NCBI RefSeq assembly: GCF_022899245.1
Contig: NZ_JALJAZ010000001.1
Coordinates: forward strand, 600,501 to 664,500
DNA from: Falsirhodobacter halotolerans
GTDB taxonomy: Bacteria > Pseudomonadota > Alphaproteobacteria > Rhodobacterales > Rhodobacteraceae
DNA length: 64,000 bases
Direction: 5' to 3'
Shown here: piece by piece, positions 26,742-32,213 of the stretch
How the letters are laid out: each line of letters starts with the position of its first letter
Numbering within the stretch: the stretch's first letter is position 1
Made by a program: the position numbers and the translations under genes
The notes under the pieces: generated by a model
What the model was told of the DNA's origin: nothing
The model's database searches: none
Seen by the model: the letters and a program-made list of their open reading frames with translations, nothing else

Positions 26742-26816
26742 TCTGCCGGTGCGCACAAGGCGCGCTTGCATAAGACCCGCGCGGGGCCATACTTTCCACA
26801 AAGACACGGAGAGCCC

Positions 26817-27239
26817 ATGACCAAACCCGATCCCCTGCTTCTGGCCGCCGCGACCGACGTGCGCATGAACGCCTATGCCCCTTATTCGAATTTCAAGGTG
26901 GGGGCCGCGATCCGCACGGTGGATGGCCATATCCATGCGGGCTGCAACGTGGAGAACGTCGCCTTCCCCGAAGGCACCTGCGCGGAAGCCGGGGCCATCG
27001 CCGCCATGGTCGCGGCGGGAGAGACGAAGATCGCCGAAATCCTCGTGATCGCCGATGCGGCGACGCCCGTGCCCCCTTGCGGCGGGTGCCGTCAGAAGAT
27101 CGCCGAATTCGCGGGTCCGGGGGCGATGGTCACGCTGTGCAGCACCAACGGGGCCGCGCGCGACATGACGGTGGCCGACCTGCTGCCCGGCGCGTTCGAC
27201 GCGACCTTCCTCGATCATCCCGCGACGGAACTGTCCTGA
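26817..27239 (+). CDS. cdd: Cytidine deaminase
   Basis: Zinc enzyme that deaminates cytidine and deoxycytidine. The 140-residue tetrameric type has NVENVAFPEGTCAEAGAI, where the Cys-Ala-Glu carries the first zinc ligand and the proton-shuttling Glu, and PCGGCRQ, with the two further zinc cysteines. The ATG at 26817 has GGAGAG upstream; earlier in-frame codons are not conserved. Its TGA overlaps the deoA ATG (ATGA-type), so it heads a coupled salvage operon. Confidence 0.95.
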   Translation: MTKPDPLLLAAATDVRMNAYAPYSNFKVGAAIRTVDGHIHAGCNVENVAFPEGTCAEAGAIAAMVAAGETKIAEILVIADAATPVPPCGGCRQKIAEFAGPGAMVTLCSTNGAARDMTVADLLPGAFDATFLDHPATELS

Positions 27240-28546
27240 TGGACCTGCGCGCCTTTCTGTCCGGCCTGCGGCAGGGGCAGGAGCCGGAGGCGGCGGCGCT
27301 GGCCGAATTCGCCGCCGGTCTTGCGTCCGGGGCCGTCAGCGATGCGCAGGCCGGGGCCTTCGCCATGGCGGTCTGCCAGCGTGGTCTGTCGGACGGGGCG
27401 CGCGTGGCCCTGATGCGCGGGATGCGCGACTCGGGCCGTGTGATGGAGTGGGATCTGCCGGGCCCGGTGCTGGACAAGCATTCGACCGGCGGGGTGGGGG
27501 ATTGCGTGTCCCTGCTTCTGGCGCCGGCGCTGGTGGCCTGCGGTGCGTATGTCCCGATGATTTCGGGCCGTGGCCTGGGCCATACGGGCGGCACGCTGGA
27601 CAAGCTGGAGGCGATTCCCGGCTTTCGCGTCGCGATGGACGAACAGGCCCTGCGCCGCCAGATGGAGACGACGCGCGTCGCCATCGTCGCCGCATCCGAC
27701 ACGCTGGCCCCGGCCGACCGCCGTCTTTACGCCATCCGCGATCTGACCGGAACGGTGGAGAGCCTGGATCTGATCACCTCCTCCATCCTGTCGAAAAAGC
27801 TGGCGGCGGGGCTGGAAGGGCTGGTGCTGGACGTCAAGGTCGGCTCCGGCGCGTTCATGAAGACGATGGAGGAGGCGGAGGCGCTGGCCCGCGCGCTGGT
27901 GACCACCGCGCAGGGGGCGGGCTGCATGGCGACCGCGCTGATCACCGACATGAACCAGCCGCTGGCGACGGCGGCGGGCAACGCGCTGGAAGTGGCGGAG
28001 GTGATGGAGACAATCACCGGCGTGTCGGTCAACATGGCCCTGTGGGAGGTGACGGTCGCCCTGGGGGGCGAGGCGCTGGCCCTGGGGGGTCTGGCCGCCG
28101 ACGCGCTGGAGGGGGAGGGCCGCATCGCCGAGGCGCTGGAATCGGGCCGCGCGGCCGAATATTTCGCCCGCATGGTGGCCGCTCAGGGCGGGCCTGCGGA
28201 TTTCGTCGAACGCTGGCCCGACCGTCTGCCCGCCGCCGCCGTCATGCTGGAGGTGCCAAGCCCCGCCACCGGTCATATTCACGCCATCGACACCGAGGCG
28301 CTGGGCCGCACGGTTCTGGCGCTTGGCGCGGGGCGGCAGGCGGCGGGCGGGCGGGTCAACCCCTCGGTCGGTCTGTCCGATCTGGCCGCGATCGGCGAGG
28401 AGGTGGAGGTCGAGGTGCCGCTGGCCATGGTGCACGCCGCCACGCTGGTGGATGCCGAACGGGCGGTTGCCGCCGTGCAGCGCGCCTATCGCCTCGCCCC
28501 CGCCGAACCGGATGAGACGCCGCTGATCCGGGGGCGTGTGGCATGA
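27239..28546 (+). CDS. deoA: Thymidine phosphorylase
   Basis: Splits thymidine (and deoxyuridine) with phosphate into the base and deoxyribose-1-phosphate. The 435-residue protein carries the signature DKHSTGGVGDCVSLLLAP (residues about 80-97) and GRGLGHTGGTLDKLEAIPGF. The N-terminal helical and C-terminal alpha/beta domains are complete. The start at 27239 shares bases with the cdd stop; the longer reading frame starts inside cdd. The stop overlaps the deoB start by 4 nt. Confidence 0.95.
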   Translation: MDLRAFLSGLRQGQEPEAAALAEFAAGLASGAVSDAQAGAFAMAVCQRGLSDGARVALMRGMRDSGRVMEWDLPGPVLDKHSTGGVGDCVSLLLAPALVACGAYVPMISGRGLGHTGGTLDKLEAIPGFRVAMDEQALRRQMETTRVAIVAASDTLAPADRRLYAIRDLTGTVESLDLITSSILSKKLAAGLEGLVLDVKVGSGAFMKTMEEAEALARALVTTAQGAGCMATALITDMNQPLATAAGNALEVAEVMETITGVSVNMALWEVTVALGGEALALGGLAADALEGEGRIAEALESGRAAEYFARMVAAQGGPADFVERWPDRLPAAAVMLEVPSPATGHIHAIDTEALGRTVLALGAGRQAAGGRVNPSVGLSDLAAIGEEVEVEVPLAMVHAATLVDAERAVAAVQRAYRLAPAEPDETPLIRGRVA

Positions 28547-29667
28547 GCCGCGTGTTCCTGATCGTGATGGACAGCGTGGGCATCGGCGGCGCGCCGGATG
28601 CCGCGGATTTCGGCGATGCCGGGGCGAACACGCTGGGCCATATCGCGGGCGCGGGACCGTTGCGGATGCCGGTGCTGGACGGGCTGGGGCTGGGTGCGGC
28701 GCTGCATCTGGCCAGCGGGATGACCGCCCCCGGTCTGGGTGCCGCCCCCACCGGCGCCTGGGGTGCCGCGACCGAGGTGTCGCGGGGCAAGGACACGCCG
28801 TCGGGCCATTGGGAACTGACGGGGGTGCCGGTGCCGTGGGACTGGCATTACTTCCCCCACGCCCCCTTCGACGCCGATCTGGTGGCGCGGGTCTGCGATC
28901 TGGCGGGGGTGGACGGCATTCTTGACGGCGGGCATTCGGGCGGCATCGCCATCATGAACGCCCTGGGGGCGGAGCATCTGCGCACCGGGCGGCCCATCTG
29001 CTACACCTCGGCCGACAGCGTGTTCCAGATCGCCGCGCATGAGGAGGCGTTCGGGCTGGACCGCCTGCTGGCCCTGTGCGAGGGGCTGGCCCCGATGCTG
29101 CACGCCCGCCGTGTGGGGCGGGTCATCGCGCGGCCCTTCACGGGGGCCGAAGGGGCCTTCACCCGCACCGCCAACCGCCGCGATTACGCGATCGCCCCCC
29201 CCGCGCCGACCCTGCTGGACCGGGCGCAGGCGGCGGGGCATGTCACCCATGCGGTGGGCAAGATCGGCGACATCTTCTCGCATCGCGGGATCGACCATCT
29301 GCACAAGGGGGGCGACGCCGCGCTGATGGACCACCTGCACCGCCTGATGCGGCAGGCGGAGGATGGCGCGCTGGTCTTCGCCAATTTCGTCGAATTCGAC
29401 AGCCTGTATGGCCATCCGCGCGATGTGGCGGGCTATGCCCGGCATCTGGAATGGTTCGACGGGCAGGCGGGGCGGCTGATCGCGGCCATGCGCGCGGGGG
29501 ACATCGTCATCTTCACCGCCGATCACGGCAATGACCCCACATGGCGCGGCAGCGACCACACCCGCGAACGCGTGCCGGTTCTGGTGGCGGGCATGACCGG
29601 CGCACTGGGGCTGATCCCCTTTACCGGCGTCGGCGATCTGGCCGCGCGGCATCTGGGACTGGCATGA
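28543..29667 (+). CDS. deoB: Phosphopentomutase
   Basis: Converts (deoxy)ribose-1-phosphate to the 5-phosphate, linking nucleoside phosphorolysis to central metabolism. The 374-residue alkaline-phosphatase-superfamily enzyme has the metal motif VMDSVGIGGAPDA at the N-terminus, KDTPSGHWELTG with the phosphorylated threonine, and FTADHGNDPTWRGSDHTRE with the C-terminal metal ligands. It starts 4 nt inside deoA and ends 4 nt inside the next gene. Confidence 0.95.
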   Translation: MSRVFLIVMDSVGIGGAPDAADFGDAGANTLGHIAGAGPLRMPVLDGLGLGAALHLASGMTAPGLGAAPTGAWGAATEVSRGKDTPSGHWELTGVPVPWDWHYFPHAPFDADLVARVCDLAGVDGILDGGHSGGIAIMNALGAEHLRTGRPICYTSADSVFQIAAHEEAFGLDRLLALCEGLAPMLHARRVGRVIARPFTGAEGAFTRTANRRDYAIAPPAPTLLDRAQAAGHVTHAVGKIGDIFSHRGIDHLHKGGDAALMDHLHRLMRQAEDGALVFANFVEFDSLYGHPRDVAGYARHLEWFDGQAGRLIAAMRAGDIVIFTADHGNDPTWRGSDHTRERVPVLVAGMTGALGLIPFTGVGDLAARHLGLA

Positions 29668-30440
29668 GGGTCGATCTGACGCTGGACCTGATCGGCGCGG
29701 CCCCGACGCGGCTGATCGCCGATCTGGCGCGCGAGAAGGACGTGGACCTGTCGCGCCTGTTCGTCGATGGGGGATACAATCTGACGCACGGTTTTCTTGC
29801 CGCCTATGACGCGGCGGCGGGGGTGGTGGTCGGCGCGCGCGATGTTGCCCGTGTGGCGGATGCGGTCTTGGGCGAGGGCTATGCCGATCTGCGCCTGACC
29901 CCGCGCGAGGGCTGGGCGGATTTGCTTTCGGCGGTGGCCGAGGGGGCGGCGGGACGGCCCCACACGCTGATCGCCCGCCTGCCGCATCATCTGGGGCCGG
30001 AGGCGCTGCGCCCCATGGCCCTGTGGGCGGCGGTGGCGGGATCGCCTGTGGCCCTGACCGGCACGCCCGACCCGTGGTGCCTGGACTGCGTGGCCGAGGC
30101 GGGGGTGCCGCTGATCCTCGACGGCACCGATCTGGCGCGCACCCCGCGTCGCATTCGCGTGCCCACGCTGACGGATGCCGAGGCCGAACGGATGGCCGAG
30201 GTGGGCGTGGGGGTCGAACTGACCGATTGGACGCAGGCCGGGCGGCTGTATGATCGGGGGGTGACGCTGGCCCTGGGGCGCGGGTTCGCCGCATTCCAGC
30301 CGCTGGACCTGCCATCGCGCCTGCATGAGGCGTTCGACTGGGACGACGCCGTGTTCCGCGATCTGGACCGTAGGGCCTTTGCGGTGGCCGTCTGCGATGA
30401 TACGACGCGCGCCAAGATGAAGGAGATGACGGATGCCTGA
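29664..30440 (+). CDS. Adenosine deaminase-like protein lacking all active-site residues
   Basis: A 258-residue protein in the slot where related operons carry add. By eye it aligns with alphaproteobacterial adenosine deaminase: [10 protein letters not shown] against VELHxHxEGA, DLSRLF and FLAAYD (residues 28-49), GPEAL (111-115), [11 protein letters not shown], and the C-terminal [20 protein letters not shown] then CDDTTRA. The zinc HxH reads T6-L-D8; HAGE reads DGTD (153-156); the GHG histidine region reads IRVP (164-167); the SDDP zinc aspartate reads LGRG (204-207). It is also about 70 residues shorter. The frame is open and both ends overlap neighbours (deoB, upp), so it is still translated with the operon. 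Catalysis is very unlikely; the role is unknown. Confidence 0.68.
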
Positions 30441-31074
30441 GACACGCGATCACCTGACCGTGGTGACCCATCCGCTGGTGCAGCACAAGCTGACGCTGAT
30501 GCGCAAGAAGGACACCTCCACCGCCAGTTTCCGCCGCTTGCTGCGCGAGGTGAGCCTGCTGCTGGGGTATGAGGTGACGCGCGGTCTGGACATGACGACC
30601 GTGCGGATCGAAACGCCGGTGACGGAGATGGACGCGCCCGCGCTGGACGGCAAGAAGCTGGCGCTGATCTCCATCCTGCGGGCGGGGAACGGGCTGCTGG
30701 ACGGGTTGATGGAGCTTATTCCCGCCGCGCGGGTCGGGTTCATCGGTCTTTACCGCGACCCCGACACGCTGAAGCCCGTGCAATATTACTGCAAGGTGCC
30801 CGAGGCGCTGGAGGATCGTCTGACCATCGCGGTGGACCCGATGCTGGCGACCGGCAACTCCTCGGTCGCGGCGATTGATCTCTTGAAGGCCAACGGCGCG
30901 AAGAACATCCGCTTCCTGTGTCTTCTGGCCTCCCCCGAAGGGGTGGCGGTGATGAAGGCCGCGCATCCCGACGTGCCGATCGTCACGGCCGCCTTGGACG
31001 ATCGTCTGGACGATCACGGATATATCGTGCCGGGACTAGGGGATGCGGGTGATCGCATGTTCGGCACAAAATAG
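30433..31074 (+). CDS. upp: Uracil phosphoribosyltransferase
   Basis: Makes UMP from uracil and PRPP. The 213-residue protein has the UPRT pattern: [20 protein letters not shown] at the N-terminus, [19 protein letters not shown], the PRPP motif [11 protein letters not shown], and the C-terminal uracil site [17 protein letters not shown]. It begins 8 nt inside the preceding gene and is the last gene of the cdd-deoA-deoB block. A symmetric hairpin 80 nt downstream separates it from the convergent gene. Confidence 0.96.
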
Positions 31075-31190: not shown

Positions 31191-32213
31191 TCAGCCCTGA
31201 CAGACGGATTGCAGGCTCAGCCATTCGTTGTCGGTCAGGATCGGGCGCGGCGGGCCTTCGGGCCACGGGTCTTCGGCCACCAGCGCCTCGGCCTGATCGG
31301 GCCGCAGGGCGCGGGCATAGGGGGCGACCGACAGATCCGCCGCGCCGAACCGTGCCAGAAGGCGGTCGCCGGGAATGCCTTCGGGCGTGCTTTGCACCAG
31401 CCATTCGGCATAGCCGTCCAGCGCGTCCTGCGGCATCTGACCCGTGGTCAAGAGGCGCAGCGTCGCCCATGTCCCGGCATAGCGGAGCAGGGGTTGCAGC
31501 GGGTCCACCTCGGTCGAACGGATGCCTTCGGCCAGCGCGGCCCCCGCGGCGACGTCGGGGCTGTCTTGTTGTTCCACAAGGGGGCTGGGCAGCAGGATCT
31601 GACGCCCCGGCAGGTGCACGGGGCGGGGCAGGCCGTTCATCACATAGATGCGGACCGAGGCCGCGTTGAACACCCGCGTTGCCAGCGTTTCCGTGGCCGC
31701 GCGGCCCAGGGGCGCGGCGCAGGGCGCGCCGGTCAGGTGCAGCATCTCGGTCATCGCCATGTCGCCCAGACGGACGCGCGTGGCGTCGGGCACCACCGCC
31801 ACGGTGTGCGACCGGATGGCCCCGGGCAGGAACAACCCCGCCAGGATCACAAGGCCCAGGCTGACGGCCAGGATGATGTTGCGCACCCGGCCCGGATGGG
31901 GGCGGGCGGCCAGGATCGCGCCATGCACGGTGGACAGCGCCTCGATCATGGCGGGTTCGTCGATTTCCAGCGTTTCGCCATCATGGTCGGCGCCGGGGGC
32001 ATAGAGGGCGGGGGTCGTGTCGTTCAGCCGTTCGACCGCCGGAAGGGACCAATGGGCCAACGGCTGGTCGGAGCGGGGATCGGCGAGGATCAACGACGCC
32101 TCGCGGAAGAACACGATCACCTCGCGCCGTTGGGCGTCGTTATGTTCGCGCCACAGGCCGGAGCATTCCAGACGGGCGTAATGGGACAGCGCGGTGGAGC
32201 TTTGGCGCACCAT
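31191..32213 (-). CDS. Membrane protein resembling an M48 peptidase without HExxH
   Basis: A 340-residue protein with a soluble N-terminus, one membrane helix at about 111-130 (RNIILAVSLGLVILAGLFLP) and an extracytoplasmic C-terminal domain. That domain resembles M48-type zinc proteases: VRIYVMNGLPRPVHLPGRQI (187-206) has the fold's strand and LPG turn, and LLRYAGTWATLRLLTTGQM (242-260) follows where expected. The place of the HExxH helix reads AALAEGI (225-231), with no zinc ligands. I infer a non-catalytic relative; an unrelated fold is possible. It lies 13 nt downstream of tdk on the same strand. Confidence 0.5.
   Translation of the reverse strand: MVRQSSTALSHYARLECSGLWREHNDAQRREVIVFFREASLILADPRSDQPLAHWSLPAVERLNDTTPALYAPGADHDGETLEIDEPAMIEALSTVHGAILAARPHPGRVRNIILAVSLGLVILAGLFLPGAIRSHTVAVVPDATRVRLGDMAMTEMLHLTGAPCAAPLGRAATETLATRVFNAASVRIYVMNGLPRPVHLPGRQILLPSPLVEQQDSPDVAAGAALAEGIRSTEVDPLQPLLRYAGTWATLRLLTTGQMPQDALDGYAEWLVQSTPEGIPGDRLLARFGAADLSVAPYARALRPDQAEALVAEDPWPEGPPRPILTDNEWLSLQSVCQG

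Follow-up and report, generated by a model that had tools for sequence, protein, structure and literature searches.

We have identified a putative adenosine deaminase pseudoenzyme in the deo operon of Falsirhodobacter halotolerans. The window analysed in this work is a stretch of 64,000 nt (GCF_022899245.1, NZ_JALJAZ010000001.1, forward strand 600,501-664,500), and the protein, hereafter pseudo-ADA, is encoded by an open reading frame (ORF) at 29664..30440 on the plus strand (258 aa). As judged from the sequence, pseudo-ADA is a homologue of an enzyme, adenosine deaminase (ADA, encoded by add), with the catalytic motifs lost. The pseudo-ADA protein has been under purifying selection after the motifs were lost, and it is fairly probable that pseudo-ADA is a pseudoenzyme retained for a role at the protein level. 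The ORF starts with ATG, has zero internal stops and lies between deoB and upp, which is where an earlier reading of the letters (the sequence-only reading) had placed an intact ORF of 258 residues. The view of that reading that the pseudoenzyme has been kept rather than plainly decayed is supported by the intact frames and by the ratios of nonsynonymous to synonymous substitution rates (dN/dS) within the sub-lineages of the genus.

The profile match, the shared slot and the alignment indicate that pseudo-ADA is a descendant of an operon-borne add. Pseudo-ADA matches the NCBIfam model of adenosine deaminase, NF006848, with an E-value of 4.4e-14 (52.5 bits), below the curated cut-off of 426 bits. 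Other genera have an ADA gene between deoB and upp in the examined loci whose contig extends that far, and pseudo-ADA can be aligned along its length with these operon-borne ADAs. The comparison with PF00962 gave a divided outcome, where the window protein has zero matches to Pfam up to E 10, PF00962 included, whereas three of the five copies in the genus match this model (best E 5.2e-7). The search of PHROGs with pseudo-ADA gave zero matches, and the sole match in the plasmid collection is a stretch of Pseudorhodobacter turbinis with 27% identity. The structure model that was built from the ADA alignment exhibits an eight-stranded barrel at moderate confidence (pLDDT 68.5, pTM 0.56), and an ADA-like barrel is thereby predicted to be retained in pseudo-ADA.

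The HxH, HAGE, GHG, and DDP motifs hold the zinc ligands and catalytic residues of ADA. These motifs were mapped by the alignment of pseudo-ADA with 15 ADAs, and all positions given here are on the plus strand. The zinc-binding HxH (HLH) is replaced by TLD (29679..29687, codons 6-8) and HAGE is replaced by DGTD (30120..30131, codons 153-156), as had been claimed. The claimed replacement of SDDP by LGRG (30273..30284, codons 204-207) also holds, with STDDP aligning on LGRGF. The claimed replacement of GHG by RVP holds in part: GHG is lost and no His is retained, but the GHG region lies within or beside a deletion, and the alignment of RIRVP (30150..30164, codons 163-167), the nearest counterpart of RIGHG, is ambiguous. 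The length of pseudo-ADA is 258 residues compared with ~325 residues in ADA, and the ~67 residues gone are close to the ~70 that had been suggested. The same losses were found in the orthologues, where the catalytic motifs are absent in all five genus copies. These copies retain no His of HxH or HAGE and neither Asp of DDP, and GHG is lost in all of them, with a neighbouring HH at that place in sub-lineage B (described below). From these replacements, pseudo-ADA is not expected to deaminate adenosine.

A second, intact add was found neither by the PF00962 search of the own genome nor by the NF006848 search of the seven genus genomes. The former gave 0 matches, where the model matches 8 of 14 control genomes but also misses pseudo-ADA itself. 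The latter gave 7 match rows, all at pseudo-ADA places and none elsewhere; this model matches 7 of the 14 control genomes, including E. coli, and is above its cut-off in none of them. Since NF006848 matches solely at pseudo-ADA places, the loss of adenosine deaminase looks genus-wide. The genome has DeoD-type and PUNP-type purine nucleoside phosphorylases. The DeoD-type enzymes accept adenosine, and the presence of one would offer a bypass by which adenosine deamination is no longer needed.

A stop-free pseudo-ADA ORF was found in the same slot in five of the seven genus genomes, and these copies belong to two sub-lineages. Sub-lineage A consists of G000, G002, and G005, with 75-77% identity to the window copy. 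Sub-lineage B consists of G003 and G006, with 92% identity to each other and ~41% identity to A. The pairwise dN/dS of pseudo-ADA is 0.22-0.28 within A and 0.14 within B, compared with 0.13-0.21 and 0.11 for deoB and 0.08-0.11 and 0.05 for upp in the same pairs. The bootstrap ranges of the pseudo-ADA values exclude 1, and each quarter of the gene shows the constraint. The intact ADA pairs elsewhere exhibit dN/dS of 0.08-0.16; relative to working ADA, pseudo-ADA is constrained about half as strongly, yet it is far from neutral. The codon branch model, which was fitted to the 238 codons aligned across all five copies, gave omega of 0.123 for A, 0.102 for B, and 0.30 for the stem. Omega = 1 is rejected in A (2dlnL 201) and in B (2dlnL 72), independently of the topology inside A (200 and 72 with the alternative topology). 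Since the motifs are missing in all five copies, the branches inside A and B post-date the loss. Frameshifts in close relatives, which had been named as a sign of plain decay, were seen in none of the five genus copies. Altogether, 69 residues are invariant in the five copies. Of these, 41 occur commonly among the 15 ADAs, 15 show a mixed pattern, and 13 are derived, being rare in the ADAs. The 13 derived residues favour, but do not prove, a single loss in the ancestor of the genus followed by divergence.

The distribution of ADA in the family was surveyed by scanning 394 family genomes, some of them incomplete, with NF006848 at E 0.001. Matches were found in 297 genomes (273 above the cut-off), and 97 genomes have no match. 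All 24 matches below the cut-off (G000 + 14 + 9) and 73 of the 273 above it were inspected. Outside the genus, a stretch of the ADA family could be aligned in 105 genomes, and 97 of these keep all four motif groups. This set includes a few divergent paralogues outside this slot, and some genomes in it may be counted twice. The eight that do not keep all motif groups are G280, G399, G320, G172, L005, G330, G153, and G344. The stretches of L005, G330, and G153 are cut by contig ends, and the piece of G330 also has one internal TAG. The matches of G344 and G393 were set aside as frames of >800 codons that resemble other proteins, and that of G393 failed to align. The ADA of G172 (L136) has TDAP for TDDP with the remaining motif groups present. 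G320 has an 86-residue in-frame add remnant (L110:1453-1713) whose overlaps with both neighbours are kept, ATGA with deoB and ATGCCTGA with upp.

Both examined genomes of genus g275 (G280, L099; G399, L114) encode a full-length ADA-like protein between deoB and upp that has lost catalytic residues. HAGE is replaced by DAGQ or DAGE and DDP by GHP or AFP, and L114 also has NLH for HLH and GQG for GHG. These proteins share the slot and the catalytic loss with pseudo-ADA, but they are full length and under weaker constraint (dN/dS of 0.31 in the pair compared with 0.10 for deoB). In the ADA tree, G280 falls with the Falsirhodobacter genus (support 100), and the tree of deoB and upp, which was constructed from 70 genomes with G280 but not G399, groups G280 with L098 outside this genus (support 100). 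The G280 protein (L071 = L099) was considered as an intermediate towards pseudo-ADA; this is contradicted by the deoB and upp tree, and the grouping in the ADA tree is taken as long-branch attraction, with a transfer as a possible cause. A catalytic loss in g275 that is independent of that in this genus is favoured.

The gene order in the window is cdd-deoA-deoB-pseudo-ADA-upp, with all five genes on the plus strand. These are cdd for cytidine deaminase (26766..27239; NF004064, 139.9 bits; start codon uncertain), deoA for thymidine phosphorylase (27227..28546; NF004490, 548.6 bits), deoB for phosphopentomutase (28543..29667; NF003766, 455.4 bits), and upp for uracil phosphoribosyltransferase (30433..31074; NF001097, 284.5 bits). 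The stop of deoB overlaps the start of pseudo-ADA by 4 nt (ATGA) and the start of upp overlaps the stop of pseudo-ADA by 8 nt, in agreement with the overlaps of 4-8 nt that the sequence-only reading had noted. The codon use like that of the neighbours, which it had also noted, is reflected in the GC at codon positions 1/2/3, which is 0.77/0.51/0.84 for pseudo-ADA and 0.75/0.52/0.87 for deoB. The upp gene has a Shine-Dalgarno-like site by consensus match, AAGGAG (30420..30425, plus strand), that lies 7 nt ahead of the upp ATG and still inside the pseudo-ADA ORF, at its 3' end. From the operon membership of pseudo-ADA, we infer that it is expressed. A convergent 340-aa gene without a Pfam match adjoins upp (31191-32213, minus strand), and L011 and L012 have similar ORFs next to their upp. 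The locus L060 of G002 has no deoA match, and deoB is located directly after cdd.

Several observations weigh against a retained role. G004 has deoB closely followed by upp, with a Shine-Dalgarno-like site present and no pseudo-ADA. No pseudo-ADA copy was found in G001, where the deo operon is split (L058/L066) with upp away from cdd-deoA-deoB. The deoB and upp tree sets A, G001, and G004 apart from B (support 100), with G004 as the sister of G000 (92) and G001 as the sister of G002 (92). Since both genomes are nested in A without a copy, the role of pseudo-ADA would be dispensable, and their placement indicates that the gene has probably been lost twice inside A. Both trees conflict inside A, where the tree of pseudo-ADA joins G000 and G005 (98) and the tree of deoB and upp joins G005 with G001 and G002 (95). 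The selection data on pseudo-ADA come from five sequences. Between A and B, pseudo-ADA exhibits dN of 0.58-0.62 and dN/dS of 0.63-0.77, compared with 0.14-0.16 and 0.16-0.24 for deoB; within the sub-lineages the values are well below 1 and not near it, which was the other sign of decay that had been named. The positive selection on the A-B stem that these values hint at was rejected, as the stem is saturated in the codon model and the gain from fitting three omegas is not significant (2dlnL 3.04). When the Protein Data Bank was searched by sequence, neither the protein nor a five-sequence profile recovered an ADA (best E 0.5 and 0.4, both to unrelated entries), and the link to ADA therefore depends on NF006848, on the alignment, on the slot, and on the model. 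The alignment-free (single-sequence) model is uninformative (pLDDT 40). The structural similarity to ADA, which had been proposed as a check, is found in the predicted fold but is not independent evidence, because true ADAs made up the alignment from which the model was derived.

The strongest rival of retention for a protein-level role is slow decay, where a useless add is gradually being lost and the apparent constraint reflects what is left of selection against a misfolded or toxic product; the purifying selection could alternatively arise from avoiding such a harmful product, which also counts against a retained role. Decay is consistent with the absence of a copy in two of the seven genus genomes, with the family genomes that lack an NF006848 match, with the G320 stub, and with the dN/dS between A and B. 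In a neutral simulation (80% GC, substitutions only, no indels), the proportion of runs whose frame stayed open was 39%, 16%, and 12% for divergences of 0.15, 0.35, and 0.7 substitutions per site, so the open frames are weak evidence by themselves. However, dN/dS is well below 1 on the branches that post-date the loss and is near that of deoB of the same pairs in A and B, and we consider decay rather unlikely. It is somewhat less likely still that the barrel has been neofunctionalised, with the mouth of the former active site re-lined to bind or convert another ligand. The dN of pseudo-ADA between A and B is ~4x that of deoB, and clade A has invariant polar residues at each predicted strand end (D8, R77/T79, R105, T132, D153/T155/D156, R165, T187/D188, and R206). 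The invariance in clade A is 77% at the strand-end positions compared with 64% elsewhere, but this enrichment is not significant (Fisher P 0.13; 16/257 circular shifts as high; P 0.43 for polar positions alone). B has other residues at those positions, the strands were delimited on a model of moderate confidence, and the three omegas give no significant gain over one. The re-lined pocket in clade A is suggestive as a lead only.

Besides a regulatory subunit or a nucleoside sensor, which are candidate roles, the sequence-only reading had also offered a spacer for translational coupling from deoB to upp, in which the amino acids are irrelevant. The overlaps at both junctions in all five genus copies (with the start codons as chosen in the analysis) and the overlaps kept by the G320 remnant fit this proposal. 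It is weakened by dN/dS of 0.14-0.28 along the whole length, which is unexpected for a spacer, by the AAGGAG that upp has near its own start, and by G004, which manages without the ORF. Intact ADAs, too, often have tight junctions: by a crude measure, and with some loci from the same genome, the ADA stop falls past the first upp codon of the alignment in 37 of 91 loci. A pure spacer is unlikely given the constraint over all four quarters, and we regard it as quite improbable. The proposal that pseudo-ADA is still an adenosine deaminase with relocated catalytic residues is very highly improbable: in its favour are the retention of the predicted barrel and the failure to find another add in the genome, but the five copies have lost the HxH/HAGE His and both DDP Asp, and GHG is lost as well, though B has the HH neighbours.

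On the reading of a retained pseudoenzyme, an operon-borne ADA lost its metal-binding and catalytic residues and a large part of its loops, most likely prior to the diversification of the genus, while the barrel was kept. Adenosine deamination would have been dispensable through the DeoD-type purine nucleoside phosphorylase, and the overlaps suggest that pseudo-ADA is co-translated with deoB and upp. In the least certain step, pseudo-ADA may associate with a salvage enzyme encoded next to it, either as a partner without catalytic activity or as a subunit that binds a ligand, with DeoB and Upp as candidates. Such a specific partner role is put forward tentatively. ADA and dihydroorotase both belong to the amidohydrolase superfamily. 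In Pseudomonas, the activity of aspartate transcarbamoylase (ATCase) is reported to need an inactive dihydroorotase chain, pDHO (PMC7053772). The partner and the complex of pDHO are proven there, whereas the partner role of pseudo-ADA is only proposed, the parent enzyme is another one, and the loops are heavily trimmed. A bolder reading, which we hold to be unlikely as a whole, is that operon-borne ADAs have repeatedly been made catalytically dead in the family and that here the loop-trimmed barrel has come to serve the deo operon as a new regulatory subunit that binds nucleosides or sugar phosphates, with the re-lined pocket differing from one of the two sister lineages to the other.

Compared with bacterial ADA (NF006848, PF00962), pseudo-ADA shares the slot, the alignment, and the predicted barrel, and differs by the lost motifs and the shorter length. 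No bacterial ADA pseudoenzyme turned up in a literature search over part of the open-access papers. Many known pseudoenzymes exist alongside a functional enzyme of which they are additional paralogues. In this genome, the sole add that was found has itself become a non-enzyme and was then probably retained. The intact parents in neighbouring genera and the less advanced case in g275 would line up the states before and after the loss within a single operon slot, and this series would make the use of a metabolic enzyme scaffold after catalysis directly testable.
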